Origin: Heliocybe sulcata
Lineage: Eukaryota; Basidiomycota; Agaricomycetes; Gloeophyllales; Gloeophyllaceae
Assembly (NCBI GenBank): GCA_004369045.1
Contig: ML213537.1
Location: 113,003-177,002, forward strand
Reading direction: 5' to 3'
Length of the DNA stretch: 64,000 nucleotides
Shown: one piece after another, positions 434 through 54,745 of the stretch
How positions within the stretch are numbered: the first letter of the stretch is position 1
Layout of the letters: the number at the start of each line of letters is the position of its first letter
Notes under the pieces: model-generated
Databases searched by the model: none
What the model was told of the DNA's origin: nothing
What the model saw: the letters and a program-made list of their open reading frames with translations, nothing else
Program-made: the position numbers and the translations under genes

Positions 434-439
434 TATAAA
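434..439 (+). promoter_or_regulatory. TATA box of GST1
   Basis: TATAAA lies 34 bp upstream of the GST1 start codon at 473, implying a very short 5' leader. The two other GST genes have TATA-like elements 70 bp or less upstream. Confidence 0.5.
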
Positions 440-472
440 CCGAAAGGACATTCCCTACAGTCTCACAGCACT

Positions 473-2732: not shown

Positions 2733-3571
2733 ATGAAGACTTTCTTCTGGTTGCTGCTGGCCGAAGTCGCCGTGGCTCAGTCTCAGAACATCGCTCTTGA
2801 CTGCACCGCCATCCCGGGTGCGTCCAAGCACGCTACGCAGTCTTAATGACGGAGGAACGCTGATGCTGTCTGACCAGAGAGACGTGCAAGAACATATGCT
2901 TTGCTGTGAAATGCAGGCAGCTCCCCTGCGTACTCGACTGCTGTGAAATTGGGGCGCCGTAATGCTGCTGGTTGCACCAGGAGGAATCGCTGCAACAGGC
3001 GTGCCGACGGGCGTACCACCTGCGACGAGTACCCATTCGCTTCTACCAGCCAAGGCGGAGGAAACGCTGTGACCCGGAACGTACGATGTACAAGCTATTT
3101 CGAACGGACGACTGACGGTCCTTAACATATAGCTGTGTTTCCCTCGATGAATGCAGGAGTACGTTTACTACTTTTTTGAAATGTGACAATGCTGACCCGC
3201 ACTGAGTCCAGACCAGGTAGAGTTCTTGTCTAGCTTCTATCAGAAGCTGAGAAAGGCTCACGCCTCCCAATTCCATGTCACGGTGGCAAAGTTTGGTAAC
3301 ATCGCGTACTGCGTGCCGGGGTTCGGTGGCTGCACCAACGACGGCGACGAGTGTCAGAATGGAGCGCATGCGCGGCGGGAGCTATATGAAAACGGGACGG
3401 AAACCGCCGGGCAGTATTTCCGCGTGAAGAGGGGACTCGAGGGCTACTCGTTGCAGCCGCGTCTTAGTACTGAACGCCACATTCATTTCTCGCGACGTGA
3501 AGGGTGACTGCGACGACGGAATTGTCGACACTCGGATGGAGGAGCTGGACTGGGAGGAGCTTGGAGAGTGA
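2733..3571 (+). pseudogene. NucA/NucB-type secreted deoxyribonuclease, pseudogene copy 1
   Basis: The first exon (2733-2817) encodes a signal peptide (MKTFFWLLLAEVAVAQ) and the start of the mature protein. The middle exon keeps the hallmark CDEYPFAST-x-GG of the NucA/NucB nuclease family, and the end has a Cys-rich CxPGFGGC region. Against the better copy at 18796-19708 three kinds of damage are visible. A 17-nt deletion near 2935-2945 shifts the frame to a stop. The donor after the CDEYPF exon has changed GT to GA (about 3080). Frame is lost again after about 3450. Intron 1 would have to use an AG that directly follows another AG. The gene stands immediately upstream of FunK1-A on the same strand, the order also seen in the inverted copy. 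The ancestral product would be an extracellular, possibly defensive or nutritional, DNase; that role is inferred. Confidence 0.75.
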
Positions 3572-3935
3572 CATGAAGTCAAGTCGGTAGAGCAGGTCTG
3601 AGCTTGCATACTTGCGGCGGCGAGGAGATATACAATAGAACTGCCCAACCGGCGCAATACGGGCTACGTGTCTCAGATCTGCTTATGAGGCCTTTCTTCT
3701 TTGCATTTTCTCTTCACTGCTTGTCAGTGCTTTGTTGTACATTCTGCATGGGTCAATGTTATCAGACGAAGGATGATAGCTGGTAAGCAAAGGTATGTCA
3801 CGAAAGACGCGTCTACGCCGGCCCTAAATGCCTCACGTGCAATCTGTCAGAACATGCCGCCACATTAGCCACAGGGGTACTGCTTCTACACCAGCTTCTC
3901 CACCTCCTGATACCCGCCTTCCCTTGGTTTTACTC

Positions 3936-6348
3936 GTGGCGACATATGGAGACGCCCTGGAATACGATGGTGCTCGAGCGGCCGCGGCGTCGGCGATGCA
4001 GACGGAGCTCGTCGCTGTACCCTCTCAGCGCTTCCTCGAGCACTACCTCCCGTTCGTCCCTGCAGAGACCAATATGGAAGATTGTCTCCAGAAGCTAATA
4101 TCCGAGGGTCTTGTTGTGGAAGACTGTCATGACGGACTCTCGAAGTACTCCTGGACATCGTATCCCGACAGACCCTCCAAGATCACGTCTGACGCTGTGA
4201 CAGCGTACCAACCTCTCGTGGATATCTACAGAGCTGTCAGCACTCCGACGATAAACAAACGGCATGCGACATGCGCATACATTCAGCACCCAGATGACGC
4301 CAGGGTCTCCAACCCATCAGGCTCAGCGCAGAGCATTGACGCTTTCTTCATTCCGCTGCAGTCAGGCTCGACATCCGAACCCATACGTACCACGAATGTG
4401 ATCGTGAATGCTAGATACCAGCTGCAGAAGAACGTGGAAAGTGTCAACGACGTACGTTCACTTCCGGGCGCGGATACTTACAGCACTGAAAGAGCCGCAG
4501 AACCGTCTGAAACTATTGAGCGGTGTGATGCACTGTATGGACGAGGACCTTCGGCGTACGTATATCTACAGTGTGCGTGCGTTGAATTCCCTCGACGCAC
4601 AGTCAATATTCACGCGCGGATCAGATGACCATCGAGGACGACCAGTTTATTGTCTGGTATTGGTCCCGATCGCATTCTGCACGATCTCATCCCATTAACT
4701 TTGTGAAGGCCCGTACGACTCCGCCCAGTAAGATCCAGTGTACCACTGACAGAGTGTTCTGCAGGATTTGAAGACGGTTCTACGAATCCTCGTCTCCCTT
4801 CTGTTCGCAACGGAACAAGAACTCGGGCTCGATCCTACTGTCCAGCATCGTTTCGACGAGCAACGTAGACCAGGATGTTACGTTTACGAACTTAGCGGGA
4901 GATATTTCAAAACGCTGGAGAGCCTCTCTACGCACCGCCCGTTGGCTGTGGCTGGTCGCGCGACACGCGTGTTTCGTGCGGTGGAGGTTGAGAGCTTCGA
5001 CGATCTCACAGAGAAAGGACCAACTAAATTATTGAGGGAAGCCTGGCTCGAGTCGATTGCTGACACGGAGAATGGCATCCAGACCAAACTATTCGCCTAG
5101 TTCAATGCCTTATCCGAACAACTGCGAGGTACTGGTCTGCTACCTGTCCAGTTGGAGGCCATGACGGACGATAACACCAAGGCGGCGCTTACAGACGCTA
5201 TCATGACCAGGAGATACAAGGACTACTTTCTCACCATTGACTGTGACTCGGAGGGCGCGTCATGTAAGGCAGTAGCCGCCGGTGCAGTGGGAACGCTATT
5301 CGATGTGAAGCCGTCGCCTGCTCCACACGCCGGGTTGGGTCTCTTCGATAGGTTTCTTCCGCCATTCCGCGTACCCCGCCTGCACCGAATAGGAGTGCCA
5401 ATCGAACTTTCGCGACCATGCGTCCATATCGAGTTGTATATGGAGAGGTTTGTGAGCCATTGTACCATGTGACGAGCCTCGCGACGGTCCTGCAGACGAT
5501 GATCGACTGTCTCACTGGTACGCGTCTCTGCTTCGACTCTTCAACACGCTGCGGAGCAACGTATCACAGCTGCCCAGCTGATGTACTGTGTTGGATGGAC
5601 CCACAGTGACGTGAGCGCTGGCAACTTGCTCTGGTACGGTGATGGAGAGCGGGGCATCCTATCGAATCTCGAGTACGCCAAAAGGTCAATCCACAAGGTG
5701 GCAGAAACCCTGATCCGAAGACGGTTTGTCATCGTCACTAGTTTCTGTAATTATCCTTCCTAACGATGCTTATCTTAGGGCACGGTGCCCTTTATGGCCA
5801 TCGAGATGACCACCCAGAGTCGTATTTATGTACTTGACGCCGACTTCAGGAAGTCTGAGAAGCGACCATATTATGCGGGAACATACAACTTTCAGCACAA
5901 CCTGGAATCATTCTTTTGCCTCCTTCTGTGGATGCTGCTTGATCGCACGCCAAGTACACCAAGCTCGCGGTGGTTCGCAGAGACTATTTTCACTAAGAAT
6001 GACCTCAACGAACGCCGAAGAGTATTGACATCCCCGGGTCATCTCCGAGAAATGCTCTCCCGGGATCTGCCCGACGGTTGACTCTCGTACCTGGACAGCA
6101 TCGAATGGTCCTGCCAAATAGTATGTACAGGCTATGCAGAACGTGGGTTCAACTTTGGGAGCTACGCCAAGCCATACCGCTTTGGCCGCATGGTCCTGCT
6201 CGAATGCCAGGAGATTGCCATGAACAGCACTCCAGTGTCCCCGGTACATCGCAAGGACTCAGCTCCTGAACCGGCCAGGCAGACGAGGAATGCTGGCAGG
6301 AAGTGCGGCAGGGAAGACGACGCCTACGACCCGGACGAGGAGAGTTAA
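3936..6348 (+). pseudogene. FunK1-A, fungal-type protein kinase, multiply broken
   Basis: All six exons of the FunK1 (fungal-type kinase, Pkinase_fungal) plan are recognisable: 3936-4451, 4501-4572, 4625-4708, 4765-5517, 5570-5723, 5779-6348. The start codon of the sister copies (Met-Ser-Ala) is GTG-Ala-Thr here, so the original ATG is lost. Further lesions are TAG at 5098-5100 (sisters have CAG), a frameshift in 5290-5430, a 1-nt loss in exon 5 and TGA at 6079-6081. Intron 3 starts GCCCGT instead of GTCCGT. The catalytic loop reads HSD where active copies have HRD. It is therefore dead as a kinase. It lies between the nuclease pseudogene and TFIIIA. Confidence 0.85.
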
Positions 6349-6613
6349 TATCCAGGACTCCGTAGCTCTGGTTTAGCGTGAACAATGTTGCCTCCGCGTG
6401 TAAGGCAGGCCCTTGCCCTGGCGTGTTTTCGTTAATAGCCACGACACATCTCACTAGGATTGGTTCTCGCAGGATCATGCATCGTAGCCGTTGGGGTGGA
6501 GCCGCACTGCCAGCGTCGTATGCAGCGGTATTGTATAATATCAGTGGCTGAATAATATAAAGTAGCTGCCCCCTTAAGTCAGAGTACACGGCCACGGTCA
6601 ACGCGATGCACCT

Positions 6614-8423
6614 CTACGCCCCCGTGCTTCCAAACTCCTGAATGCCTCTCTCCATAGCCACCCACACCTCGACGTCCTCCTTCGTTGCGTCTATCTTGTG
6701 TATACCACGCAGATGGCGCCTCACATCGTACGCCCTGCTGAAGACGTACTCACATCTGTCACTGGTACATGCTCCAGCCGAAAGGAAGGGTGCATGAGGG
6801 AAGGGACACCTTAACTTCCTGGACGCCGCATCCTTCGCTCCATCTGCGTACGCCTTTCCGGTGAGGAAATCGATAGTCCCCGCAGGCGCCGTCTCTTCCT
6901 CCTCGAAATCAGACCCGGACGACTCCCGGTCTCCTTCATCCGAAGACTCGTACGAAAATCCGGTACGCTCATGTTTCTTCGCCATGTGTCGCTGGAGAAG
7001 ATGCTTATACCCGAACCGCATCCCACAGCTCTCCTCGGGACAGACGTGGTCACGCTTACCGAGGTGCGTTACATTGACGTGTACGCTCAACGCTGTTTTC
7101 TGCATCGGAATTGGCGTTAGCACTACTCCTTCCCGAGTAGAAAAGGCCACACCCACCGACTTGAAATCCCGTTTACATCCGTCCACGTCGCAGACCCACT
7201 CGCGGCCCCACTCGCCACCTCGTCTTCTCTTCGCCCTTCTTCCTTCCTCTACATCCGTCTTCAAGTTGAATTCGTCCTCAGCAGCATGCAGTTTCATGTG
7301 GGCACGCAGCCCCTTGTGTTGGGTAAAGGTCTTGCCATGGCACTGCGAGTACGGACATGTCGGCGGGTGCGCCATACGAATATGCGCCTGGAGAGCCGTC
7401 CAGGTGGGATAGAACGCTGATGTTGAACAAGACGGGTGTACGCACGCGTAGCGATTATCTACGGATGCCATTAAGCGGTGCTGGCCACGCTGTGGGACAA
7501 GAGGAACGCTTACCTTCATGCACTTTCGTATGCGTACGAAGTTTCTGGTTAGTCGCGAAGGATTTTGTGCAGCCGTCGTGCGTGCAGATATATGGCTTTG
7601 TTCCCGGTGGTGAATGGGCCGTGCAGACGTGAGAGCGAAGTTGATGATGCTTCATGAAGGCCTCTGGACAGCCAGAGCGGTCGCACTATGATACGAAACA
7701 CATGAGATCCTTGTCCTACGTGATAGCACGGGATCTAAGTGGCGGATACCTGCTGAGCCGCGCGGTGCCCAGTTGTGTTGATATGCCGCGCTCTCAGCTG
7801 GACCCAATCGCATGATACGGTCATGCTTGTATGAATGGTCCAGCGGGAATAGAAAGACACCCGCAACGCCTCAACATCACAACCCCACCAGTACACGAAT
7901 GTATTTGACTGAGTACGCACCTTGAACGGCTTCTCGTCCCGATGCCACTCCTCATGCGTCCTCAGGTGTTGACTGGTCCAAAACCTCTTTCCGCAACCCG
8001 TCGCGTCGCACACGAAAGGCCTGTCGGACTCTGGCAAATGTGAGCGTGCATGTGCCTGGAGGTGCGTCTCTCGGAGGTATGCTTTATTGCACGTCGAGCA
8101 GACAAATGGCCTCTGCATTATGAAATGACATCCAATCGCGCTATGTATCCCGATGAGCGACTCACCTCTCCGGTATGGGAGCGCTCGTGCTCCGCCAACC
8201 TGGACGGTTTCGTGTAGGCTTTCCCGCACTGGTCGTACTGGCAGTGGTATTTTCTCTTCCTAGCCGTGGTCAATGTTCGGTTGACAAGTCCAAGAGGTCC
8301 CTCCGAAGGCCCAGCATGAGAACTGGCGTCGACATCAGAAGAAACTGGAGTGGAAAGGCGGATTAGTCCTGCTTCAAGATGCCTGCGCTTTCTGGACACC
8401 GTCGACGTCGTGCTGATGGACAT
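6614..8423 (-). CDS. TFIIIA: Transcription factor IIIA, C2H2 zinc-finger protein
   Basis: Exons in coding order: 8423-8166, 8112-7921, 7685-7514, 7458-7157, 7099-6614, giving 469 aa. The protein has a basic N-terminal leader and then nine C2H2 fingers in an almost unbroken run with TFIIIA-type linkers. After finger 9 comes an acidic linker and an atypical tenth Cys/His unit near the C-terminus. This matches fungal TFIIIA, which binds the internal control region of 5S rRNA genes and recruits TFIIIC and RNA polymerase III, and binds 5S RNA itself. An in-frame upstream ATG at 8495 would add 24 residues; I chose 8423 because the truncated copy at 25006 starts at the same Met-Ser. Intron 2 (7686-7920, 235 nt) is long for this genome. 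The gene is divergent from TatD with about 200 bp between them. No lesion is seen. Confidence 0.88.
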
Positions 8424-8621: not shown

Positions 8622-9939
8622 ATGGGTAAACACAGCAAGAAAAAATATCAAGTCGTGGACGAATCACATCTTCATCTACCTGCGCATTCAAGCTCGAGCT
8701 CAAGTTCGGCCCAAATCGTGGACACCCACACGCATCTGGTATCCACCTTCTCTACCTATCAGACTAAATACAGGGAAGGGCGGTATGCCAGCATCTTTGA
8801 TTTTGTCAAGGGTATGTACAATAGAGAGGGAAGCCATAAGGTCGAGGCGATTGTGGACGTCTGGTGTGAGGCACCCGTGCAGAAGGTATGGAAGGAGCTC
8901 GCGGACTCTGCACTGAGCCTGGAAGAACGGGAGAGCAGATGGGGAGGGACCGAGTATTGGTTTGTGATGGGTGCGTACGTACGACCGGTTGTACGCAGGT
9001 GTCCAACCAGTAATATAACGGATTCAATGCAGGAGTACACCCGTGCGCTCGATCCTACTCGATGCGAGGTAGAGATTAACATGAATCTCGTTACTTAGAC
9101 ACGAAGCGAAACTCTACACAGACGATGTAGAGAAGGACATGTGCGAAACGTTTTCTGTTGGCCTTTGACCAGTGGTAACATTGTCGACAGACTGGAAGCC
9201 ATGGCACACCCGCGCTGCGTCGGCTGGGGAGAAATAGGGCTCGACTACCACTACGATAACTCTCCGCGCACGATGCAGCAAAACATCTTCCGGCGGCAGC
9301 TCAGGCATGCTGTACGCCTCGGGAAGCCGCTCACCATCCACACGCGCGAAGCGGAAGAGGACACGGAGAGGATACTCAAGGAGGAGGTGCCAAAGGACCA
9401 TAAAGTTCGTCGCCAACGTGGGCTGTAGCCTATCTGCTAACGCTCACGCAGATACACGTACACTGCTACACGGACTCGCCAGAGCTCGCTCAGCGCTTGC
9501 TAGACCATTTCCCGAACTTGTATATAGGGATCACCGGTCAGCCTATCTGTTACATGGCGGACACTAAGTGAACCTGATGCGTCTCGGTAGGCGTGATAAC
9601 ATACTCCACAAACCACAATACATCCGCCGTCATCCGGAGCTTTACTTTGTCCTCCTCATCCCCAATGCGAATCCTCCTGGAGACGGATGCACCGTACATG
9701 GTGCCTTCGAACATCTATGCCTCGCTTCCCACACTCAAAGGTATGCTCCGCTACCCTCATCACACTAATGAAGACACGTGCTGCATCTTCGTGCATTCGC
9801 AGGGCGACTGCCGCTCTGCCACACCGCCATGATCCCCTGGACCGCAGAGTTTGTCGCAGGCATTGCCGGAGAGGGGTGGGATGCGGAGCGGGTGATGCGT
9901 GTCAGCAGGGAGAATGCGAGACGGGCGTACGGAGTGTAG
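8622..9939 (+). CDS. TatD-family metal-dependent DNase
   Basis: Exons 8622-8970, 9033-9042, 9099-9140, 9191-9404, 9452-9536, 9591-9740, 9803-9939 give 328 aa. All metal ligands of the TatD amidohydrolase fold are present: HTH at residues 36-38, Glu in GEIGLDY, His in LTIHTRE, His in IHVHCY and Asp in LETDAP. The predicted activity is Mg2+-dependent 3'-5' exonuclease or AP-site cleavage in DNA repair or apoptosis-like DNA breakdown. The second exon is only 10 nt and is needed to make the GVHPHEA junction. A 31-codon in-frame extension to an ATG at 8529 is basic, Ser-rich and without acidic residues, as in mitochondrial presequences, so a second isoform is possible. It has a Lys/Ser-rich N-terminal leader before the fold. 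Two remnants of this gene lie at 20970-21400 and 24420-24690. Confidence 0.87.
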
Positions 9940-10265
9940 GCATGGCACGTGAATGTGCCGGGCGTTAAAGCGGGCGGAGGAGGGATGGGAAGGAGGTGTA
10001 GCTACCAGGGAGGTAGGTCGACCGGGCGTTCCTCTGTTGGTTGATGGAAGTTACCCTCCTCTAGCATAAGCGTGTCAGCCCGTGATAGCACCTATACTCG
10101 TATTCAATGTGCGCAGGCGACGCACGGCGAGGGACCTTTCCTGCCTCGCAGGCCGTTCATACAAGCACTGACGGCACGGCATATCAACGTAGCGGGGCGC
10201 AACGTGACTGGGCTACTTAGATGCACTACTATTACACGGAATCTACGAGCGAATGCTGAAGGATA
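9940..10265. other. Short intergenic stretch between convergent TatD and FunK1-E
   Basis: No gene seen. It corresponds in position to 24101-24419 in the flipped copy, between FunK1-D and the TatD remnant, and should contain the 3' untranslated regions of both genes. Confidence 0.4.
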
Positions 10266-11078
10266 CTACGCCGTCCCGGTGCAAGGCCGTAGCTGCCTTT
10301 CTGCGCCCACGTCCGTCGTCGACTCACCATGCCGACTTTTCGACGCCAGTTCTTCACTGTCGCAGCCTGTGCCACCACTCTCCTTGTCCGGGTCGTAGGC
10401 ATCGTGATCCCGGCCGCGCTTCCTGGCAGTCCTCGTCTGCTTAGGTTGAGAGGCTGGACCATCCAGCCGCGCGTCCGCCTTGCCATACACTTTGGGCTCC
10501 ACGTACGGCTTTCGGCGAGGATCGTATTAACAATGCAAAGTGGTTGCGCGTACCTCGCAACGTCCCCATAGTTGAGCTCCCGACGCGAATAGCCTGCACG
10601 TAGTGTATCGCAGAACCACACGAGATCGTCCAGATACGGTGACAAACAACCGAACAGACTCGCGGAGGGCATTTCTCGGAGATAACCCTCGATTGTCAAC
10701 CACCGTCCAGCGTACGTGCAGGTCGTTCTGCGTAAAATCGGTGTGAACAACCCGATGCGAGGTTGGTGCGCGACCGAGCAGCGTCCACAGAAGGAGCCGG
10801 AAGAATGCTTCCGGGGCGTGTGTGTATAACACGGTGCGCCCTAGTACGTGTCTCGGGCTTTCTTGTGCAGTCTCAGACATGAGTAGTCATGACTGGGAAG
10901 CTATCTCGACGGCCATGAAGTATGCCGTGCCCTAGAAGAATGATCAGCAGAAACAGCAATAGGTAAAGCTCTTCAAATCTGACAGAATTCCCCGCCCTCC
11001 AGCACCGTACCAGAGCAAGTTTCCGGCACTCACGTCACCGTCGGTCCATCCAACGCAGTACATCAGCTGTACGTTGCT
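10266..11078 (-). pseudogene. FunK1-E, 3' fragment of a fungal-type kinase
   Basis: Only exons 5 and 6 of the FunK1 plan remain. Reading from 11078 down, the catalytic-loop exon is present (LMYCVGW, then GNLLWYGAG), but HRD has become DGD. The last exon begins near 10936, meets a stop within ten codons, lacks the stretch before the conserved ESFFWLLLW helix and then changes frame repeatedly. The C-terminal low-complexity basic tail ends at 10266. Sequence upstream of 11078 shows no further FunK1 homology, so the copy was truncated at its 5' side. It is convergent with TatD, the arrangement kept by FunK1-D and the TatD remnant. Confidence 0.75.
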
Positions 11079-11610
11079 TAGCAGCGTGTTAAAGAGCCGG
11101 AGGAGAGAATCGTCCCGTGGGTATTACAGAGAGCCTGCGGGAAAGATCGAGATGGTACCAGGTAGTAAATGGTAGTGCGATCGCAAATATTAGGATGAGG
11201 GTACAGTATTGTGGCACACCAGTATTAGGTAAAGGCTTGGCATGGCATTCCCCGAGACTATTCATTCCTGCCACAAAAATCAATCTACCCAGTGGTCTTG
11301 GCAGTCAGAAGAAAGCCAGAAGAAGCTGCAGGCACCCATGTATAGTACTTAGGCCACTTACAACACGCGACAATGATGACCGGTGCTTGAGGTCTGACCG
11401 GGATCTGATCCGACCTTCCGGCCAGTGGCACTTCTGACTGGGATTGGTTGTATCAGGGGTCCTCTCTTACTCCCCTTCTATGAGATGCGCCTCGTCACGA
11501 GCATGCACTGCTATCGGTATTGCACCAGGATTTACCATTCATTAGGACTATAAGTTTAACGATAGGGCATCCATATATACTATAATCTGCACCCGAATTA
11601 ATGAGCGACA
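11079..11610. other. Intergenic, no gene recognised
   Basis: Separates the FunK1-E fragment from the stop codon of FunK1-B. The two overlapping short frames (11089-11283 minus, 11117-11437 plus) are not convincing. A TATA-like AT-rich tract lies at about 11565-11585. Confidence 0.4.
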
Positions 11611-14130
11611 CTACTCCGTCCTGGCGCGGGGCCGTAGCTGCCTTTCCGATCCTATATCCGTCGTAGACTCACCACGCGGACTCTTCGACGACGGCCCTTC
11701 AGACCCGTCACCTGATCCACCACTCTCTTGGTCCGGCTCGTAGACGTCGTCATCCCTGCTGCGCTTCCTAGTACCCCTCGTCTGCCTAGCGCCTAAGTCT
11801 TCCGACGGCGCTTGTACCATGTGCTTGCCATACACTTTGAGCACTATGTCATGGTTCACGGCGTACTCGTGGCATTCCGCGAGGACCGCACTAGCAATGC
11901 AATGCGGCTCGGCGTAACTTGCGATGTCCTCGATTTTGGACTTGCGCAGCATGTAACCTGTGAAAAGTGCACCAGAGAACCATTCCAGATCTTCCTGATA
12001 TGAGGCCACGCAATCAGGCAAGCCCTTCGAGAGCATTTTTCCGAGATAATCCATGTCTGCCAACACCTTCCGGCGTACGGTGAGGTCATTCTCCATGAAA
12101 ACGGTCTTCACAAGCCATCGCGAGACTCGTGTACCTTCAATGCGACCGAGCAGCGTCCACATAAGGAGCCAGAAAAATGATTCCAGGTCATGCTGAAAGT
12201 TGTGTATAACGTGATGCGTCCTGAGGGGGTGGGCCTTTTTCCCGAATCCGCGCTCAGGCAAAAAAAGATGCAGTTGGGAGGCTATCTCGATGGCCATGAA
12301 GTAGACCGTGCCCTAGCAGCATCGTCAGTAAAAGCAACAACAGCAAAGCCAGTGCTGATGACGAACTGTCTTCGGATCAGGCTGACCGCTACCCTGCGGG
12401 TTGAACTCTTTTGCGTACTCGAGATCCGACAGGATGCCCCGCTCTCCAGCACCGTACCAAAGCAAGTTACCGGAGCTGACGTCACGGTGAATCCATCCAA
12501 CGCAGTACATCAGCTGTACCGCTGGGATACCCGGGCTCAGCAGCGGACTAACAAGGTGGAGGAGACGCATACCTCTGAGGCAGTCGATCATCGCCTTCAG
12601 GACCGTCGCGAGGCTGGCCACATGGTGCAATGGCTCACAAACTTCATTATACACGACTCGATAGGGGCGCTTCGTCGCGAAGGCTCGTTCGGTACTGATA
12701 TTTGGTGTGGGCGAGGATGTGTTGATCGGGTGAGGAGAGCCATACGATCGAGACAAGTCGGCATACACAACGCGGGCCGGTCTCACGGACGCCCTCTCCT
12801 CTTCACAGAATGGGCTTCTCTTGGCATCGTCAGCCACTGCCTTACACGACGTGCCCTCCGAGTCCCACTCGATGGTGAGGAAATAGTTCTTGTACTTCTT
12901 GGTCGTAATAGCGTCTATGAGCGTCGTCTTCACATCCTCGTTCTTCATGGCCTGCAATTGGATAGGTTCCGGACCAGCACCTGACAGTCGGTCGGCTAAA
13001 GCATCGAATCGAGCGAATAATTTGGTCTGGATGCCCTTCTCAGTGTCAGCCTTCGACTCGAGCCACACATCCTTCAACACTTTCTCTGGTCCCAGTTCCG
13101 AGAGGTCGTTGAAATCCTTGACCTCCACCACTCGAAAGACGCGCGTCGCTCGAGTAGTCATGACCAACGCGCGATTCTCGATGATGCTCTGCACGGTCTT
13201 GAAATACTTCTTGCCAATCTTGTATACAAAACACGTATTGTTGCGCTTCTCGTCAAAGCAGCGTTGGACAGTTGAATCCAGGCCCAACTCCTGTTCCGAT
13301 GCGAACAACAATGATATGAGGATCTTCAAGATCGTCTCCACGTCCTGTGGCAATCACATCAATTGCATGTTCGCAGGTAGCGTCAATGCGGTCGTACGCA
13401 CATTAACGAAATTAACGGGTTCCGATCGGGCTGAATGCGATCGTGACCAGTACCAAGGCATAAACTGATCATCTTCGATGGTTATCTAATCCGCGGTGAG
13501 TGATGTCTCGCAATGCAGAAAAATTGATGAACGCACGCTGTACATATGAGTCCGTCTCACGTCGTCGTCCATGACGTGAATTGCAGCGCTCAAGACCTTT
13601 CGACGATTCTGGGGCTATTTGAGTCTCATATGCATTCGCACCGGGCTCAACGTACATCGTTAACCTCCTTCGCGGCATTTTTCACCTTATACTCGGCATT
13701 CACAAGCACATCCGCCGTCTGCACTTTCGTCGTCATGCGGAATCGATGGGCTTGGTTTCCGTGACGTTAGAAACGCATCCATCATGTGCGATGAGCCAGG
13801 GATTTGGGAATCAGTGGTGTTATGAGGCCGTTCCACATAGACGCATGTCGCCTCTCGACCCTCAACTGCCACGTTGCTGATGGCCTCGCACACCTCCGAG
13901 AGGAAATTGTATGCTGACGACTCGATGACGCCGGATTGGGAAGGTGGCGCCTGGCAGGCCTCCCACAAATTCTTATTGTTGGCGTCTTCGATGACGAGGC
14001 GTTTATCTTTTAGAACCTTTAAACAATCCTGCACGGCGCTGTCCGACGGCACGAATGGAAGGTAGTGCTCCTGGAAACGCTGAGATGGGACTGTCACCAC
14101 CTCGTCCTGCATTGCCGTCGCCGCATGCAC
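11611..14130 (-). pseudogene. FunK1-B, fungal-type protein kinase with one apparent frameshift
   Basis: Exons in coding order: 14130-13656, 13608-13537, 13485-13402, 13344-12573, 12521-12367, 12312-11611, about 753 codons. Exon 1 holds the N-terminal region with QRFQEHYLPFVP. Exons 4-6 hold the kinase domain, including VVYNEVCEP, IHRDVSSGN, LSDLEYAKEF and the ESFFWLLMW helix of the C-lobe, then a basic, Ser-rich tail. All splice sites are GT-AG and phases agree in exons 2-6. Exon 1, however, is 475 nt, one base out of phase: the frame must change near 13690-13770 to reach the conserved VLVNAEY end of the exon, and no intron can be drawn that repairs it. It is either a very young pseudogene or a single-base assembly error. 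It is the most diverged of the full-length copies. Confidence 0.72.
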
Positions 14131-14637
14131 CCGTCCACTTGGAACGTCCGAACGAGCCGAGTGACGAATCGAACGCGGAGTATCGCTGTTGTTAGGTGTG
14201 GATAGTCAGAGGAGCAAGTAGCACACAGCGTCTGGAAAAGAGGCTTGCCTGACTGTCGGCGGCGGTGGTTGAGGTTCGGGAGTTTCGTGTCGGTTACTAT
14301 ACTAGAATGAGGACATCCGCTCATGAGCATGGCCAATCCCTCACCTCGACTTCATGTTCTCGTAACTTTTTGAACGCGTCGCCATCGAGCCACCACACGA
14401 AGAGTGCTATGGAAGATGTTGGCGGACTGGGATGGACGATGTTGGCAGACAGAGATGGACGACGGCGTGGGGAACGCGCGTTAGGGGCACGTGATACTTT
14501 AGGGCAAGCTCAGACGTGGACAGCTCGGCACTTGAAGCTTTGAAGCTTCGATGACCACCAATCCTTGGTGGATAATATAAACCAGCGGTGAGTCCCCACT
14601 TGCACTCTCTTACCATCTGCTGACCAGGTTCACGCAG
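14131..14637. other. Intergenic, upstream of FunK1-B and of the Cys-rich frame
   Basis: No gene recognised. A TATA-like element (AATATAAA) lies at about 14574-14581 on the plus strand and could serve the Cys-rich frame that follows. Confidence 0.35.
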
Positions 14638-15710
14638 TGTGCAGCATGCATTGCATGTAATCGTCGCTGCCAGATCAGCCGAAAGGCAAAGCCACTGACC
14701 TCCTGCATCTCGTGCCGAAGGCAAAAGCACCGCTGCACGCTCTCTATTGGACGAGTTACAAACGCGACGCGATACGCAACTGCCGAAAGGACAGTCAAGC
14801 CCAGTCCAGCGGAGCAAACAGTGCCGCCTCTTCCACAGAGTCGTGCAACGCGTTCCGATGTTCGCGACGAGATGGAGTCCTCTCAGCTTAATCCCATAAT
14901 ACAGTCCGGAACCCACAAGAGCGCCCCGCCGCCTCTTCGAGAACGTGCGGTTCAGTTCTCTCAGCTTAATCCGATAACGCAGTCCGGAACGCACAAGAGT
15001 GCGCCGCCGCCTCTTCAAGAACGCGCGGCATCCTCCAATGCAATGCATGCGAGCCATTCGACAACCACCGCACTTGGCAAACGTCGTGCAGCGTCACCTA
15101 CTGAACCACGCTCATCAAAAGTGCCTCGAACGGATCTCTTCGGTAAGCCCTGACCGGTGACCTGCTGCGCCCGCTGTAGCCACTTTATATTGCTCCTAGT
15201 ACCGACACTCGTATCCATGTATGGGACCCAAATATACGGCTCCGTCACCTCTCGTGTTGCTCTCCACAACGAAGATGCGAAGCACGCGCTCGATGGAAAC
15301 ATCATTTTGGAGATCTCTCCGGAGAGTAAGGACCGCATACCTATCTGTGTTAGTAACCAGTTCGCTGATGCCGTGATGCAGCCCGCTTATCATTGTTCGA
15401 GACGCGCATTGCGCTCTACGAGTGGCGCATTTCACTCATGGAGCGCTGTTTAATCGAGCTCATGGTCGCACGTGACGCGAACAGCGAGCTCCTCACAGAC
15501 TTGATCAACCAGTTCGTGGCGATGCAAGCATGCCTCCAGTGCACCAAGCGGGACCTGCTCGCCCTCCGTGAAGAAGCCGTGGCTCCCATAGATTGGGCCT
15601 CTTTAGAGTCACTCTGGGATGCATTCCGCGAGTTCCGACGTCATCTGCGTCCCATTGAGCGCAAGATGGAGCGGAAAGGCTCGGCTGCGCTGCCTGCAAC
15701 CACCATGTAA
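14638..15710 (+). CDS. Unrecognised Cys-rich, helical protein (incomplete model)
   Basis: A frame open from 14638 to 15142 starts with two Cys clusters: C-x2-C-x2-C-x4-C and, about 20 residues on, C-x2-C-x6-C in a basic context (SCISCRRQKHRC). This looks like a half or altered fungal zinc cluster. A 23-residue unit (SQLNPI... to ERA) is repeated at 14881-14949 and 14959-15027. The exon ends in a good GTAAGC donor in phase 1. A plausible later exon from about 15404 to the TAA at 15708-15710 encodes a Leu/Arg/Glu-rich helical segment. No ATG is found in frame upstream of the Cys clusters, so the first exon is missing, unrecognised, or the gene is broken. I do not know its function; DNA binding is only a guess from the Cys spacing. 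Confidence 0.35.
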
Positions 15711-15911
15711 GCTCGCAAACACGGATGGCGACTGCTCACTGCCATGCTGCGACACCGTGAGTGGACGGGCGCAAGGAGACAGGAGATATTCACTATTTCA
15801 TGATGGTCCTAGTAAGTATAACAAGACAGTCATATATAGTAAAATCTGCACCCGAAAATGAGCGACGCTTATAATCCGTGCTGGTACGGGGCTGTAAGTG
15901 CCTTTATGACC

Positions 15912-18476
15912 CTACATCCGTCGTGGACTCGCTACGCCGACATTTTGACGACGGCTCTTGACAGTTGTCGCCGAGCAACCACTCTCGTTGTCCGGGTCGT
16001 AGGAGTCGTCATCCCTGCCGCGTTTCTTGACAACCCGTCTTGCCTGCGTAGCCGGTTGAGACGCTGCGTCTTTCGGCAGCGCTTCCTCGCGCGGTTGGTC
16101 TTTGTGAAGCACATTGAGCGCTATGTCATCGTCCATGGCAAGCTTACGGCACGCATCGAGTATCCTGCTGCCCAGGGAAAGTGGGTCAGCGTAACTCGCG
16201 AGGAGTTCGATCTTGTACCCGCGCGCCACACTACCAGAGCGTAGGACATGACAGAAATACACGAGCTGCTCCAGATAAGGTGTTAAAAGCAGGTCCTTGC
16301 AGAGCTGGTCGTCGAGATAACCCGGGTTAACTATCACGTTTCGACGTGCATTGAGGTCATTCCGCTTGAAGAGGGCCAATTCAAACTGCTGCGAGCTTGG
16401 TGTACCTGGAGTGCGAGCGAGCAGCGTCCACAGGAGGAGCCAGAAGAATGATTCCAAGTCGTGCTGAAAGTGGTGTATGACTTGATGATATTCTTCTTGC
16501 GCCTTAGGCCGCATTCTGATGTCGGAGGCAGGTATATAAATATGACTTTGGGTCGCGATCTCGACGGCTATGAAGTATGCCGTGCCCTAGCAGCATCATC
16601 AGCAAAAACAGCAATAGGCAGAGCGAGAGTTGATGACGAACTATCTTCGGATCAGGGTGTCTGCTACGTTGGGGGTTGAATTCCTTGGCATACTCGAGAT
16701 CCGATAGGATGCCTCGCTTCTCAGCACCGTACCAGAGCAAGTTGCCACAGCTCACGTCACGATGAATCCATCCAATGCAATACATCAGCTGTATGGCTAG
16801 GGTACCCCATCTCAGCGGCGCGTCACTGAGGTATAGAAGAGATACATACCTGCGAGGCAGTCGATCATCGCGTTCAGGACCATCGCGAGGCTGGTCACTT
16901 CGTGCACTGGCTCACAAACTTCTGCGTATACGACTCGATACGGCCGCTTCGTCGCGAAGCCTCGAGCTGCGCGCACAACAGGTGCCGCCGAGGGCGCACT
17001 GACCAGGTGAGGAGAGTGATAGGAACGAGAAAACCCGGCATAGAGAACACGAGCCGGCACCTCAGGGGCTCTCTCCTCACAGAACGGCGTTCGCTCCACA
17101 CCGTCGGCCACTGACTTGCATAAACCACCCTCCGAGTCGCACTCGATGGTGAGGAAGTAGTCCTTGTACTTCTTGGTTGTAATAGCATTTACCAGCGTCT
17201 CCTTCAAGTCACTGTCCGTTGCGTCCGGATCACTCTCCTTCGTCTCCTTCTCACTATCGGCGATGGCCTGCAACTGGGGACATAGCGAACCAGTAAGCCG
17301 CAGTTCTTCGGCTAAAGCATCGAATCGAGCGAATAGTTTGGTCTGGATGCCCTTCTCCGTGTCAGCCGTCGACTCGAGCCAGGCTTCCCTCAATACTTTG
17401 ACTGGTCCTTTCTCTGTGAGCGCGTCGAAGCTCTCGACCTCCACTGCTCGAAACACGCGTGTCGCGCGACCAGCCACAGCCAACGGGCGGTGCGCAGAGA
17501 GGCACTCCAGGGTCATGAAATATCTCTGGCCGACTTTGTAAACGAAACAATCTCGTTTACGTTTCGCGTCAAAGCGATGGCGGACAGTAGGATCGAGCCC
17601 GAGTTCTTGTTCCGATGCGAACAGAAGGGATAAGATGATTCGTAGAACCATCTTCAAATCCTGCAGAACACTCCGTCAGTGCTGCACTAGATTCTGAGGG
17701 TGGGGAGTCGTACGGGCCTTGACAAAGTTAATGGGATGAGATCGTGCAGAATGCGATCGCGACCAATACCAGACAATAAACTGATCGTCCTCGATGGTCA
17801 TCTGATCCGCGCATGAATATTTATTGTGCAGCTAGCAGATTCAACGCACACTGTACATATGAGTACGCCGCAGGTCCTCGTTCATGCAGCGCATCACACT
17901 CGTTAATACTTTCAGACGGCTCTGCAGGTATTTAGTGGTGTGAATATCCGCGCACAAAATTGAACGTACGTGGTTGACACTGTCCGCGTTGTTCTGCAGC
18001 TGGTATGAAGCGTTCACGATCACATTCGCGGGACGTATGGGCTCGGTGGTCGAGCCTGACTGGAGCGGCACGAAGAAAGTATCGACGTTCTGCGGGGAGC
18101 CTGGTGTTTCGGAGACCTGGGCGTCAACCGGTTGCTGAATATATGCGCATGCCGCTTGCCGTCTGTTGATTGTCAGAGTGCTGAGAACTCTGTAGATATC
18201 CTCGAGGGGTTGGTACGCTGTCACCGCGTCAGATGCGACCTTGGACGGTCGGTCGGGATACGATGTCCAGGAGTACTGCGAGAGTCCATCATGGCATTTT
18301 TCCACAACAAGACCCTCAGATATTAGCCTCTGGAGACAGTCTTCCATACTGGCCTCTGTCGGGACGAACGGGAGGTAGTGCTCGAGGAAGCGCTGAGTGG
18401 GTACAGCTACGAGCTCCCTCTGCATTGCGCTCGCTTGGGCTTGAGCGTATTCAGGAGTGTCTGCACATGCCGACAT
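15912..18476 (-). CDS. FunK1-C, fungal-type protein kinase, the only copy with an unbroken frame
   Basis: Exons in coding order: 18476-17970, 17921-17850, 17801-17718, 17660-16850, 16796-16642, 16586-15912, giving 767 aa, normal for FunK1. The N-terminal part has QRFLEHYLPFVP. The catalytic loop IHRDVSCGN places HRD at 503-505. DLE at 524-526 replaces DFG, as usual for this family, and the C-lobe helix ESFFWLLLW follows. The end is a Lys/Arg/Ser-rich tail suggestive of a nuclear protein. FunK1 kinases are expanded in mushroom-forming fungi; targets are unknown. One oddity: intron 3 begins GCCCGT, which is neither GT nor the GCAAGT of accepted GC-AG introns, so splicing may be weak. The nuclease pseudogene 2 lies about 320 bp upstream on the same strand. 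Confidence 0.78.
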
Positions 18477-18795: not shown

Positions 18796-19708
18796 TCAAG
18801 CATGCCCGACCGACTCGACTTCATGCCACTCTCCAAGCTCCTCCCATTCCAGCTCCTCCATCCGCTTCTTCCGGGTGTCAACGATGCCATCGTCACAGTC
18901 GTCGTACAGACTGCGCGAGATGAGCGTGGCGTTCGGCACGAAGACGCGGCTGCCGACGTCAATGTCGCCTGACAGCGAGTAGCCCTCCAGTCCCCTCTTC
19001 GTGCGGAAATAATGGCTGGCGGTTTCGGTCCAGTTTCCATGCAGCTCCCGCCGTGCAAGTCCTCCATTTTGATACTCGTCGCCGTCGTTGGTGCAGCCAC
19101 CGAACCCCGGCATGCAGTACGCGATGTTACCATAGTTGGTGACCGTGACCTGGAATTGGGACGCGGACGCCTTTCTCAGCTTCTAGTAGAAGCTGGACAA
19201 GGAGCCTCCCTGGCCTGGACGCAGTGCAGGTCAGAATAGTCACCTCACAAGAAAGTAGCAAACGTACTCCTGCATTCAGCGAGGGACACACAGCTGTGCC
19301 AAGAAGCGTCAGCCTTCTATGCGGACTAGCTTGCACGTCGTACGTACCGGGTCACAGCGTTTCCTCCGCCTTGGCTGGTAGAAGCGAACGGGTACTCGTC
19401 GCAGGTGGTACGCCCATCTGTACGCCCGTTGCAGCGGTTCCTCCTCGTGCAGCCAGCAGCATTACGGCGTCCCCTTTTCACAGTAGCCGATGGGTCGTCA
19501 AAGTCGAGTACGCCGGGGAGCTGCCTGCAGTTCACAGCAAAGCACATGTTCTTGCACGTCTCTGCGGTAAGACAGCATCAGCATTCCTCCGTCATTAAAA
19601 TGGCCTAGAGAGGTTGTGCGCACCCGGGATGGCGGTGCAATCGAACGCGATGTTCTGGGACTGGGCGAGCGCAACGCCGGCGAGCAATAACCAGGAAAAG
19701 GTCTTCAT
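18796..19708 (-). pseudogene. NucA/NucB-type secreted deoxyribonuclease, copy 2, one nonsense codon
   Basis: Exons in coding order: 19708-19624, 19561-19348, 19293-19268, 19214-18796. Together they make 247 codons with correct GT-AG sites and phases. A signal peptide (residues 1-16, ending LAQ) precedes a Cys-rich domain. CDEYPFAST lies at 82-90 and a canonical-like ECRSQGG segment, in which Cys replaces the usual Asn, lies near residue 110. A second conserved half has CMPGFGGC and a long acidic C-terminus. In NucA/NucB nucleases the DEYPF acidic pair is part of the active site; the enzyme would cut DNA outside the cell. Codon 119 is TAG (19185-19183) where copy 1 has CAG, a single C-to-T change. 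Otherwise the frame is clean, so the gene is very recently dead, read through, or miscalled at one base. Confidence 0.78.
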
Positions 19709-20421: not shown

Positions 20422-20895
20422 ATGCCATACTATCCAGTACACGTCTACATCCCGTTCGATGGCGTCGCCGACCAAGTGAAGCAAGGGATCATCGATGCCC
20501 TCAACAAACCCAACCAGGAATTCGCTTTCGAACAGCCACCGATAGCCATCGCGCCAGCGCTCGACGCGTCGGCAGTGGCCGAAGGATCGATTCCCAACCA
20601 TTCCGACATCGAGCTAAAGCAAGCCATACAGAAAGAGCTCGAATACGGCCAGGAATCCGGACGCGGCACTGCGTTCTTCATCTGGGCGGAAGGCTCAGCG
20701 CTGCAGCCATCCGACCCGACCGTGCGAGTGATGCACGTGTGGCCGCCAGAGAGACAGGGAGGGCAGGTGCAGGTGCAGGAGGTACGAGCGGAGCTCAGCC
20801 AAGTGGCTGGCATTGTCAACTGTGTCGAGTCCGGGAACCAAAGCTTCGAAGAGTGTCAAGAGTGGGCAGGAGATGATGGCGTGGTTAGGGCCTAA
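20422..20895 (+). CDS. Unrecognised acidic protein, 157 aa, single exon
   Basis: A single ATG-to-TAA frame whose composition looks coding: it opens YYPVHVYIPFDGV, is rich in Glu, Gln and Val and has no low-complexity run. It has no signal peptide or membrane segment and no motif I recognise. It alternates hydrophobic strands with helices (for example IKQ/AIQKELEYG, FFIWAEG, VRVMHVWPPE), which would suit a small cytosolic alpha/beta protein. It lies between the nuclease pseudogene and a TatD remnant, head-on to both, and has no counterpart in the left arm of the duplication. The antisense frame 20445-20819 is Cys/Ser-rich and less plausible. Confidence 0.5.
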   Translation: MPYYPVHVYIPFDGVADQVKQGIIDALNKPNQEFAFEQPPIAIAPALDASAVAEGSIPNHSDIELKQAIQKELEYGQESGRGTAFFIWAEGSALQPSDPTVRVMHVWPPERQGGQVQVQEVRAELSQVAGIVNCVESGNQSFEECQEWAGDDGVVRA

Positions 20896-20969
20896 CGGAC
20901 GAAAAGATTGCCCAGATTGACTAGGGCACAAGTACTGGTAATGTATGTAGCCAGTACGTGTTATACACC

Positions 20970-21400
20970 TGGAATTGACACCGAGGCCTTGAGCTCGTGG
21001 TTGAGTGACGGGATTCGTGTTCATGTCACTATGATCAAGCTTACAGGCGTGCTTCTGTGCAAAATCTGTTGTATTGTCAGTTCGACACCAAGATCTGTAA
21101 AACCGCACGCACGCACCCATTACAAGCCAATACTCAGTATGCAGCCCATCCTGGTGGGTCTCCCATTCTCCTGGTTCAGTGCAGACTGCGCTAGTCCCTT
21201 CCACACCTTCTGCGCGGGTGCTTCACACGAGACGTCCACCTCGACCCCTCCCTTTCGGACAGAACAGCTGCAAAATCAATGACGCTAGCATACCAACCTT
21301 CCGGCAGCTTTGCTGGTAGGCGGCGAGAGTCGATTCCAGGTGAGCTGGGGTGTCCATGGTTTCGGTTCGACCTCGAATGTGCAAGTGAATGAAAGCGATG
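20970..21400 (-). pseudogene. TatD 5' remnant (second fragment)
   Basis: Reading from 21400 down, the sequence follows TatD exon 1 and intron 1. The metal motif VDTHTHL has become MDTPAHL, the stretch YxxREGRYAS is still legible with frameshifts, and the last part of exon 1 (TEYWLVMG) keeps its GTGCGT donor. Homology fades around 20970 near the micro-exon and intron 2. It lies just upstream of FunK1-D in the opposite direction and is separate from the TatD 3' remnant at 24.4 kb. Confidence 0.65.
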
Positions 21401-21523
21401 CATATGTTTTCTACGAATGTGTCACGTGCATCCTTATCGTGGCGCCACATTCGCCACACTTCGCCACATACAAGGGGTACTGCTTTTCTCCATCCTGATA
21501 CCGCCTTCGCCTGGTTTTACTTG

Positions 21524-24100
21524 ATGTCGGCATATGCAGACACTCTGGAATCTTCTGGTGCTCAAACGGCCGCGGCGTCAGCAATGCAGACGGAGCTCGT
21601 AGCTGTTCCCTCTCAGCGCTTCCTCGAGCACTACCTCCCGTTCGTCCCGACAGAGACCAACATGGAAGATTGTCTCCAAACGCTAATGCGTGAAGGCGTT
21701 GTTGTGGACGACTGCCATGACGGGCTGTCGCAGTCCTCATGGGCATCTTATCCCGACCGACCGTCCAAGGTCGCATCTGACGCGGTGACAGCGTACCAAC
21801 CCCTCGAGGGTATCTGCAGAGTTCTGAGCACTCTGAGAATCAACAAACGGCAAGCGTCATGCGCATATATTCAGCAACCGGTTGACGCCCAGGTCTCCGA
21901 AACACCAGGCTTCGCGCAGAACGTCGATGCTTTCTTCGTGCCACCCCAGTCAGGCTCGTGCGCCGAGCCCATACCCGCCCAGAATGTGATCGTGAATGCT
22001 CGATATCAGCTGCAGACGAGCGTGGACAGTGTGAACGAGGTACGTTCAATCCCGTGCGTAGACAGTCACAGAACTAAAGAGCCGCAGAATCGCTTCAAGG
22101 TATTGAGCGGTGTGATGCGCTGTATGGACGAGGACCTGCGGCGTACTCATATGTACAGTGTGCGCGCGTTGAATCTTCTAAACGCATAGTCAATATTCAC
22201 GCGCGGATCAGATGACCATCGAGGACGATCAGTTTATTGTCTGGTATTGGTCTCGGTCGCATTCTGCACGATCGCATCCAATTAACTTTGTCAAGGTCCG
22301 TATGACTCCGCCCAGTAACATCCAATGTACCACTGACGGAGTGTTCTGCAGGATTTGAAGACGGTTCTACGAATCCTCGTCTCCCTTCTGTTCGCATCGG
22401 AACAAGAACTCGGGCTCGATCCTACTGTCCAGCATCGCTTTGACGCGAAACGTAAACGAGATTGTTTCGTTTACAAAGTCGGCCAGAGATATTTCAAGAC
22501 CCTGGAGTGCCTTTCTGTGCACCGCCCGTTGGCTGTGGCTGGTCGCGCGACGCGCGTTTTCCGAGCAGTGGAGGTCGAGAGCTTCGACGATCTCACAGAG
22601 AAAGGACCAGCTAAAGTATTGAGGGAAGCCTGGCTCGAGTCGACGGCTGACACGGAGAAGGGCATCCAGGCCAAACTATTCGGCCAGTTCGATGCCTTAT
22701 CCGAACAACTGCGAAGTACCCGTCTGCTACCTATCCAATTGGAGGCCATGACGGACGACAGCACCAAGGCGATGCTCACAGACGCTATCATTACCGGAAA
22801 ATACAAGGACTAATTCCTCACCGTTGAGTGTGACGCAGAGGGTGCTTCATGCAAGGCAGTGGCGGATGGTGCGAAGCGAACACCATTCTGTGAGGCGGAG
22901 AGACCCCGTGTAGCACCGTCCCGTGGTCTACACGCTGAGGGGTCTGTATATGATTGCTTTCCTCGGTTGTTCAGCGCATCCCCGCCTACAGCAAATATGA
23001 GTGCCGATCGCACATTCGCGACCATGCGACCATATCGAGTTGTATATGGAGAGGTTTGTGAGCCATTGCACCATGTGACGAGTCTCGCGACGGTCCTGAA
23101 GACGATGATGAACTGTCTCACTGGTAAGCGTCTCCTGCACCTCGTTAGTTCTCTACTGAGCCCGGGTATCCCAGCGGTACAGCTGATGTACTGCATTGGA
23201 TGGATTCACCGTGACGTGAGCGCCGGTAATTTGCTTTGGTACGGTGCTGGAGAGCGGGGCATCCTGTCGGATCTGGAGTATGCAAAGGAGTTTATTCCGC
23301 ACGGTAGCGGTCACCCTGATCCGAAGACAGTTCGTCATCAGCACTGGCTTTGCTCTTGTTGCTTTTACTGACGATGCTGCTAGGGCACGGTCTCCTTCAT
23401 GGCTGTCGAGATAGCCTCCGAACTGCATATATTTGTGCCTCAGCGCGGATTCAGGAGAAAGGCCGACTCTATCAGGGTGCATCACGTTATACACAACTTT
23501 CAGCATGATCTGGAATCGTTTTTCTGGCTCCTTCTGTGGACGCTGCTCGATCGCATTGAAGGTACACCAACCTCGCAATGGCTTGTAAAAACTGTTTTCA
23601 TGGAGAATGACCTCATCGTACGCCGGAAGGTGTTAACAGACACGGGTTATCTCGGAGAAATGCTCTCAAAGGCCTTGCCTAATTGTCTAGCACCATATCG
23701 GGAAGAGCTGGAATGGTTCTCTGGTGCACTTTTCACAGGTTACATGCTGCGCGAGTCCAAAATCGAGGACATTGCGAGTTACGCACAGCCACTTTGCATC
23801 GGCAGTGCGATCCTCGCTGAATGCCATGACTGTGCCGTGGGTGCAGACGTAGTGCTCAAAGTGTATGGCAAGGCGGAAGCGCGGCTGGACGGCTCAGCCT
23901 CTCAACCTGCTAGGCGGACGATGACTGCCAGGAAGCGCGACCGGGATGAGGACGCCCACGACCCGGACAAGTCGAGTGGTGGCACAGGTTGCGACAGTGA
24001 AGAGCCGTTGTCGAAAAGTCGGCGTGGTGAGTCTACGACGGACGTGGGAGCAGAAAGGCAGCTACGGCCCCGCACCGAGTCGACTTGTAGTATCCCTTAG
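21524..24100 (+). pseudogene. FunK1-D, fungal-type protein kinase with one nonsense codon
   Basis: Exons 21524-22039, 22088-22159, 22212-22295, 22352-23123, 23175-23329, 23384-24100 give 772 codons with correct phases and GT-AG sites throughout. It also has the intact GTCCGT donor of intron 3 that copies A and C have lost. The kinase loop is complete: IHRDVSAGN, LSDLEYAKEF, ESFFWLLLW. The only lesion is TAA at 22811-22813 (codon 378), where the other copies have TAC or TAT (Tyr) in KYKDYFLT. Translation would end before the catalytic loop. It is a very young pseudogene or a sequencing error. It is convergent with the TatD 3' remnant, mirroring TatD and FunK1-E. Confidence 0.8.
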
Positions 24101-24419
24101 CATTCACGTGTAATAGTATTGCAGCTAAGTAGCCCAGTCGCTTTATGTCCCGTCATGTTGACATGCCGTGCCGCCAGTACTTGTATGAACAGCCTGCCAG
24201 GCAGGATAGGTCGCTCGCGGCGCAGTCGGGTGCCCGCGTTAGATATGATTATAGGGACGAACTCGGGTTGACACGGGTTACGCCAGACGAGGCCTAGGGT
24301 GAGTGCCCTTTACATCTACGAACAGAGGCCCTCGCAGTCAACTCACCTTCCTGGCCGCTACATCTCCTTTCCACCTCTCCTCCGCCCGCTTTGACGCACG
24401 GCACATTCACGTGCCATGC

Positions 24420-24690
24420 CTACACTCCGTACACCCGTCTCGCATTCCCCCTGCTGACACGCATCACCCGCTCCGCATCCCACCCCTCTCTGGCAATGCC
24501 TGCGACAAACTCTGCGGTCCAGGGGATCATGGCGCTATGGCAGAGCGGCAGTCGCCCTACGAATGCAGGGAGATACGGCAGATGTTTGAAATTTCACTCG
24601 AGATGAGGGTGGCGGAGCGCACCTTTGAGTGTGGGGAGCGAGGTGTAGATGTTCGAGGATGTACGGTGTGTCTTAGGCCTGCATACGGTT
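24420..24690 (-). pseudogene. TatD 3' remnant fused to a copy of the TatD promoter
   Basis: From 24690 down the sequence matches the end of TatD exon 6 (SNIYxSLPTLK), its intron and exon 7 (CHSAMIPWTAEF to the stop at 24420). Directly upstream of it, at about 24690-24790, lies a copy of the TatD promoter and 5' leader (compare 8470-8560). Exons 1 to 5 are missing, so an internal deletion of about 1.1 kb joined promoter to penultimate exon. Confidence 0.75.
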
Positions 24691-24735
24691 GCGAGGCAAA
24701 AGCATGAGAGGAGAAAATGTGACAAGTGACAGACT

Positions 24736-24751
24736 CCCGTGATGTCACGGG
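24736..24751. promoter_or_regulatory. Conserved palindrome in the rearranged TFIIIA/TatD promoter copy
   Basis: Perfect 7-bp inverted repeat CCCGTGA / TCACGGG with a 2-bp spacer. It corresponds to the 6-bp version at 8483-8498. Confidence 0.45.
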
Positions 24752-24793
24752 ACCGTTTGACGCGTTCCTGTCTCTGCCACACTCACCCAAGCT

Positions 24794-24818
24794 AGGGAGA
24801 GGGAGAGGGAGAGGGAGG
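24794..24818. repeat. Hexanucleotide microsatellite (AGGGAG)n
   Basis: About four tandem copies, purine-only on the plus strand, placed at the edge of the rearranged promoter copy. Confidence 0.7.
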
Positions 24819-25005
24819 AGAAATAAATATCAGGAGAATAGAAAGGGTCAGATCTGTATATACTGGTAGCCTGCACTGGGAGGGAATCTAATTGCGCGCG
24901 GCGTGTGCTACCACAGCATAAGCAAGAACGGTCCTAAGTGTTCTTTTACAAATACTACCTAGCCTGTCCACTCTCTAAGTATTTCTGCGATGACCGTGGC
25001 AGGCC

Positions 25006-25140
25006 ATGTCCTTCAGCGCCACGTCGACGGTGTCCAGGCAGTGCGGGTATCCTCAAGCAGGATCAATCCGTCTTTCCACTCCCGGCACTCCAGTTTGAAC
25101 GTCTGACGTCGTCACCCGCTCTCATGTTGCCAAGAAGAAC
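25006..25140 (+). pseudogene. TFIIIA 5' fragment
   Basis: Starts with the same Met-Ser as TFIIIA and follows its first 25-30 codons (STSTVSR..., IRLSTP) with substitutions and frame changes. It is lost before the first zinc finger. Its orientation relative to the TatD remnant is the same as that of the intact pair, but inverted in the window. Confidence 0.65.
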
Positions 25141-54710: not shown

Positions 54711-54745
54711 AACGAGAAGCTAGGAGGCTATCGCCAGCCCTGCTG

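Follow-up and report, generated by a model that had tools for sequence, protein, structure and literature searches.

How did a short region of the Heliocybe sulcata genome come to hold, in opposite orientations, repeated pieces of a nuclease gene, a zinc-finger gene, a TatD gene and several FunK1 kinase genes? This question was addressed in a window of 64,000 nucleotides (positions 113003-177002 of contig ML213537.1, hereafter C35), which was analysed as a whole and compared with the single assembly used (31.6 Mb, 51 contigs). Coordinates refer to the window unless a contig is named. An initial annotation had proposed a single broken fold-back inverted duplication, in which the gene order of the left arm recurs flipped and fragmented on the right, and which may have included the glutathione S-transferase (GST) genes at both ends.

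Two inverted blocks in exchanged order

When the window was compared with itself, the segment at 2.6-11.1 kb proved strongly similar, in inverted orientation, to that at 15.9-25.1 kb. Twelve matches were obtained between the left arm (2.6-11.2 kb) and the right arm (15.7-25.2 kb), seven of them inverted and five direct, the direct ones corresponding to FunK1 copies. In a control comparison, the right arm reversed without complementing gave no match to the same left arm; thus, the inverted repeats are real. They form two duplicated blocks, N and T, each of which is present twice and inverted. Block N contains NucA and FunK1 (2.65-6.35 kb versus 19.79-15.9 kb), with 2648-6045 aligned to 19788-16314 (76.5% over 3.5 kb). 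Block T extends from exon 1 of TFIIIA through TatD to the tail of a FunK1 gene (8.31-11.07 kb versus 25.13-23.18 kb); its main alignment pairs 9690-10962 with 24668-23353 (75%), a further piece reaches up to 11072 versus 23177, and on the TFIIIA side 8312-8565 is matched to 25129-24668 in two pieces, approximately 1.1 kb of the TatD body being missing at 24668 in the right copy.

Each block is collinear internally, but collinearity around one axis fails for the whole locus. The coordinate sums are 22.36-22.44 kb for block N, 33.2-34.4 kb for block T and 30.1 kb for a separate fragment, TatD''. The left order is NucA-FunK1A-TFIIIA-TatD-FunK1E (that is, N-T), and on the right the minus strand reads TFIIIA'-TatD'-FunK1D-(TatD'' fragment)-NucA'-FunK1C (T-N). 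Given the differing axes and the swapped block order, the locus is not one fold-back palindrome, and a single fold-back cannot yield N-T against T-N without a later move. The single fold-back duplication was therefore not upheld, the arms being non-collinear (sums of 22.4 versus 33.2-34.4 kb); the inverted similarity of the two arms was itself confirmed and is strong. FunK1-E, TatD'', the mosaic composition of FunK1-D and a unique open reading frame (ORF) at 20.4-20.9 kb had been overlooked in that annotation.

Both copies of the NucA/NucB DNase gene are broken. The left copy, putatively secreted (2733..3620, plus strand; PF14040 match at C35:115942-116121), has lost its frame through a 17-bp deletion, and its block homology starts at 2648; secretion is suggested by our reading of the N-terminus. 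The right copy (18796..19708, minus strand; PF14040 match at C35:132325-132549) has a frame that is open save for one TAG. These two matches (62.0 and 49.4 bits) were the only ones to PF14040 found in the genome. Since both of them lie at this locus, the idea that NucA and FunK1 recur as a pair across the genome was rejected.

TFIIIA and TatD sit between oppositely oriented FunK1 copies. The TFIIIA-like C2H2 zinc-finger gene (6614..8423, minus strand; zf-C2H2 matches and exon frames) looks complete; its matches over or near the cut-off are to general C2H2 families, and we take it to be TFIIIA from the layout of its fingers. The TatD DNase gene (8622..9939, plus strand; PF01026) likewise looks complete, with its first three exons joined and the rest read as frames. 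On the right, a remnant composed of TatD' and exon 1 of TFIIIA' (24084..25129, minus strand) matches left positions 10260-9690 and then 8565-8312, and the TatD'' fragment (21034..21365, minus strand; found by self-comparison) has a Kimura two-parameter distance (K2P) of 0.39, higher than that of any other TatD or TFIIIA piece. A second full copy of the zinc-finger or TatD gene was not found by DNA search of the genome. The exon frames thus agree with the initial view that TFIIIA survived on the left only, both TFIIIA and TatD being read as complete there alone.

Beyond this locus, a DNA search of the 31.6-Mb assembly, which skips very common words, detected no copies of the zinc-finger/TatD region, of FunK1-D or of either spacer. 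The spacer between FunK1-B and FunK1-C (14230..15860, unstranded) contains two ORFs, was found at one place in the genome and has no Pfam match; a 75-bp direct repeat (88%) is present at 14876-15028 within one of its ORFs. The ORF between NucA' and TatD'' (20422..20895, plus strand), which is weakly DUF6924-like (18.6 bits, below the cut-off of 24.4), was also found at one place.

The divergence of the two blocks is overlapping. For block N, K2P is 0.18 for the left and right NucA genes, 0.32 for the NucA-FunK1 spacer, 0.28 for FunK1-A versus FunK1-C and 0.51 for 128 aligned bases upstream of NucA; for block T, it is 0.22-0.25 for the TFIIIA and TatD parts and 0.145 for the tail shared by FunK1-E and FunK1-D. 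The resulting ranges are 0.18-0.32 (the 128 upstream bases excepted) and 0.145-0.25, respectively. The raw difference is 13-26% for the block pieces, with 37% in one short upstream stretch and 30% for the separate TatD'' fragment.

The presence of GST genes at both ends in opposite orientations, as annotated initially, was borne out by self-comparison and family matches. One gene with a GST family match lies on the left flank (428..1180, plus strand), and two genes in a direct tandem pair lie on the right (25515..27775, minus strand; self-comparison, K2P and a family match on ORF 25963-26394). Two of the three GSTs were queried in the family searches and both matched, the right pair being represented by ORF 25963-26394 only. 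The right pair differ from each other by a K2P of 0.18, and the left and right GSTs by 0.55-0.58, as against 0.145-0.32 for the blocks (0.51 in the 128 upstream bases). Because the GSTs on the left and right have diverged much further than the blocks have, the GST genes were probably outside the duplicated unit, contrary to the initial suggestion.

Other duplicated families in the window, to the right of 25.5 kb, are mostly in direct orientation. One family at 28636-49205 has direct copies near 28.6, 30.4 and 41.3 kb and an inverted one near 49.2 kb, and one of its ORFs weakly resembles a 2OG-Fe(II) oxygenase, below the cut-off. Moreover, the segment at 33.1-35.4 kb has a direct copy at 43.8-46.2 kb, and further direct similarity (64-83% in pieces) is present at 37770-39627 and 54639-59310.

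FunK1 copies and the mosaic FunK1-D

When the exons were read by a map common to all copies, three of the five FunK1 copies were found to have broken frames, one to be truncated and one to be open. FunK1-A (3858..6348, plus strand; exon map and frames) is a pseudogene: its frame contains a TAG and 1-bp deletions, its C-terminus is shortened, and it has HSD in place of the HRD of B, C and D. FunK1-B (11611..14205, minus strand; exon map) has an exon 1 broken by a 10-bp insertion, the rest being open. FunK1-C (15912..18476, minus strand; frames) is the only copy open throughout, encoding 767 aa in six exons, with a GC donor for one intron, of GC-AG type, in the exon model. FunK1-D (21452..24104, plus strand; exon map, window identity, walk and AU tests) is a mosaic pseudogene with a TAA at 22811, and FunK1-E (10250..11100, minus strand; self-comparison and exon map), its positional partner, is a 5'-truncated remnant. 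The coding copies are 21-35% apart overall, with closer patches.

Membership of the family is indicated by PF17667, which FunK1-C matches at 154.8 bits (curated cut-off 24.1) and for which exons of B, C and D exceed the cut-off. The ordinary kinase motif is HRDLK; HRDVS is found in FunK1-B, C and D, and HSDVS in the broken FunK1-A. In FunK1 proteins, active-site position 8 has been described as a serine instead of the lysine of other kinases (PMC3203195), and the HRDVS motif shows such a serine, the agreement being one of motif rather than of residue-by-residue numbering with that paper.

The identity of FunK1-D to the other copies, profiled in 150-bp windows, changes along the gene. At 21.41-22.58 kb it is near to A (72-95%) as well as to C (77-95%); from the window that starts at 22.58 kb to the one that starts at 22.99 kb it is nearest to A (mostly 84-92%, and 68-78% in three); at 23.06-23.73 kb it is nearest to B (84-93%); and from 23.80 kb it is nearest to E (85-86%). 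The corresponding partner segments are A-like at 22.66-23.12 kb, B-like at 23.12-23.85 kb and E-like at 23.86-24.10 kb. Walk tests were run with different copies as the child (14 in all, 20,000 permutations each, single-test p values with a floor of 5e-5). Four of the five tests with FunK1-D as the child reached the floor, and the remaining one gave 1e-4; when the child was A, B or C, six of nine p values were below 0.02 and the other three were 0.068, 0.083 and 0.77. Quartet AU tests, with segment borders chosen after the window-identity and walk-test results, assigned A, B and E as partners in segments 2, 3 and 4, respectively, both alternatives being rejected each time (p 0.001-0.003); the quartets for segments 1-3 did not include E, and the one for segment 4 did not include A. 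In segment 1 (21.52-22.66 kb), all quartets survived the AU test (p 0.16-0.83), the best-scoring one joining A with C, not C with D; window identity of FunK1-D to C reaches 95% there.

The switch of partner from A to B to E therefore implies conversion or crossing-over between copies. Moreover, the E-like tail of FunK1-D continues into the TatD' remnant, which is what one would expect had FunK1-D originally been the partner of E by position and had its more 5' sequence replaced afterwards. Features expected of gene conversion are present both in the partner switching and in high-identity tracts within lower-identity flanks in two of the five inverted FunK1 pairs elsewhere in the genome.

FunK1 pairs elsewhere in the genome

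A total of 49 FunK1 sequences were compared; at an E value of 1e-5, none of the five copies on C35 matched any of the remaining 44 at the DNA level. Thirteen mutual-best pairs were identified, a count that lies apart from nine weaker FunK1 places (by our grouping). In six pairs the two members share a contig and are within 40 kb of each other, and the other seven are on different contigs or, on C27, 94 kb apart. Five of the six close pairs are inverted, and the single direct one is the A/D pair of this locus. An orientation bias was considered and set aside, five of six being not significant alone and the C26 pair among the five aligning poorly.

The inverted pair on C6 shares 1,443 identical bp between windows of 67-83%. 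On C15, an inverted pair comprising FunK1 and a RabGAP-TBC gene shares a stretch of 2,678 bp without any difference, next to FunK1 windows of 83-98%; because the arms include the RabGAP-TBC gene, the copying of a neighbour is not unique to the present window. Errors of assembly could account for the identical tracts of both pairs. No identical tract was seen in the profiles of the inverted pairs on C6b, C29 and the poorly aligning C26. The direct pair on C27 is 94-100% identical in windows over approximately 2.5 kb.

The identical tracts on C15 are located at C15:91127-93805 and 102435-105112 (L011 7128-9806 and L012), approximately 8.6 kb apart, and represent a candidate flip/flop region. The idea that a mobile element carries this tract was unsupported, as only two places were found. 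In addition, C42 and C50 share 5.3 kb at 99.6%, up to the end of C50 (L015 2809-8094, L016 3428-8712), which reflects either a redundant contig or a young duplication.

Origin of the locus and its place among known systems

We consider it likely that a FunK1 cluster was duplicated in inverted segments at least twice together with its neighbours, that its copies recombined with each other, and that most of them have decayed. Under this explanation, the local cluster would have been enlarged by duplications that took along NucA with FunK1 in one case and TFIIIA exon 1 and TatD with FunK1 in the other. The mosaic FunK1-D would then be the product of gene conversion or crossing-over among FunK1 copies in inverted and direct orientation, and the subsequent decay of most copies would have left one open FunK1 (C) and TFIIIA and TatD each complete once. 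The inverted blocks, their exchanged order, the mosaic and the breaks are observed; how many events there were and in what order, and conversion as the main mechanism, are what we infer. The initial annotation had suggested ectopic recombination followed by rapid decay; recombination and decay are supported by the inverted blocks, the mosaic FunK1-D and the broken copies, but "rapid" is not, the pieces being 13-26% apart.

A single fold-back event that duplicated the whole unit in inverted orientation, with a later transposition exchanging blocks N and T, would account for the inversion of both blocks and their overlapping divergence. It appears unlikely in view of the order N-T versus T-N, with axes approximately 11-12 kb apart in coordinate sum, and of the much greater divergence of the GST genes; furthermore, working by hand, we found no single inversion between FunK1 copies that turns the mirror order into the observed one. 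N-T and T-N are also circular permutations of each other, so that an N-T circle cut out, reinserted in inverted orientation and opened between FunK1-A and TFIIIA would produce T-N in one step. This is quite improbable: the 1.66 kb between NucA' and FunK1-D consists of a diverged TatD fragment (0.33 kb) and DNA for which no partner was found, and tandem duplication with loss explains the order equally well.

Haplotype mis-assembly is unlikely because of the divergence of the pieces (13-26%, with 37% in one short stretch), their different breaks and permuted order on one stretch without N, and the absence of any other DNA copy found in the assembly. Even though redundant contigs may exist, as the match between C42 and C50 illustrates, we give very little credence to two alleles having been merged by the assembler. 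Decay by RIP-like repeat mutation would suit repeated DNA with nonsense mutations and seems extremely improbable, given transition:transversion ratios of approximately 1.1-1.2 to 1 (345:300, 319:270, 327:274 and 396:357) and no strong CpA bias in the same four of the ten FunK1 pairs. A broader proposal, that the FunK1 loci of this fungus are recombination-diversified arrays in which inverted pairs kept alike by long conversion tracts can flip the DNA between them and broken copies serve as sequence donors, is doubtful at best.

In birth-and-death multigene families with interlocus gene conversion, copies are gained, mosaics are formed and copies are broken. The present locus fits this model, its own detail being the inverted, permuted block order; a kinase cluster that evolves by birth and death, with copies duplicated in inverted orientation and exchanging sequence, represents a known kind of process. 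No description of FunK1 together with gene conversion was found in the literature searched. FunK1, first described in Coprinopsis cinerea, is presented as a large fungal kinase family with functions still to be elucidated, with lineage-specific expansions in Paracoccidioides and Coccidioides and copies enriched in non-syntenic regions in Paracoccidioides (PMC3203195). The same family, with copies expanded within a lineage, is thus seen here, whereas the H. sulcata locus also copied pieces of TFIIIA, TatD and NucA; inverted pairs and conversion tracts are not mentioned for the Paracoccidioides and Coccidioides genes in the part of that account considered (PMC3203195). In Saccharomyces, a flip/flop region with Centroid genes is described in which the orientation of 24 kb varies among strains and the copies of the repeat hardly differ (PMC9731477). 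The likeness, as far as that description goes, is a fast-evolving, often duplicating family in homogenised inverted repeats (PMC9731477). In contrast, the FunK1 copies here are 21-35% apart, with one orientation known from one assembly.

These findings have several implications. Exchange of segments among FunK1 members matters for any FunK1 tree, as mosaic genes mislead trees, and the locus points to places where orientation polymorphism could be sought. The locus also illustrates how an unstable neighbour can bring about the partial duplication of a single-copy gene like TFIIIA.
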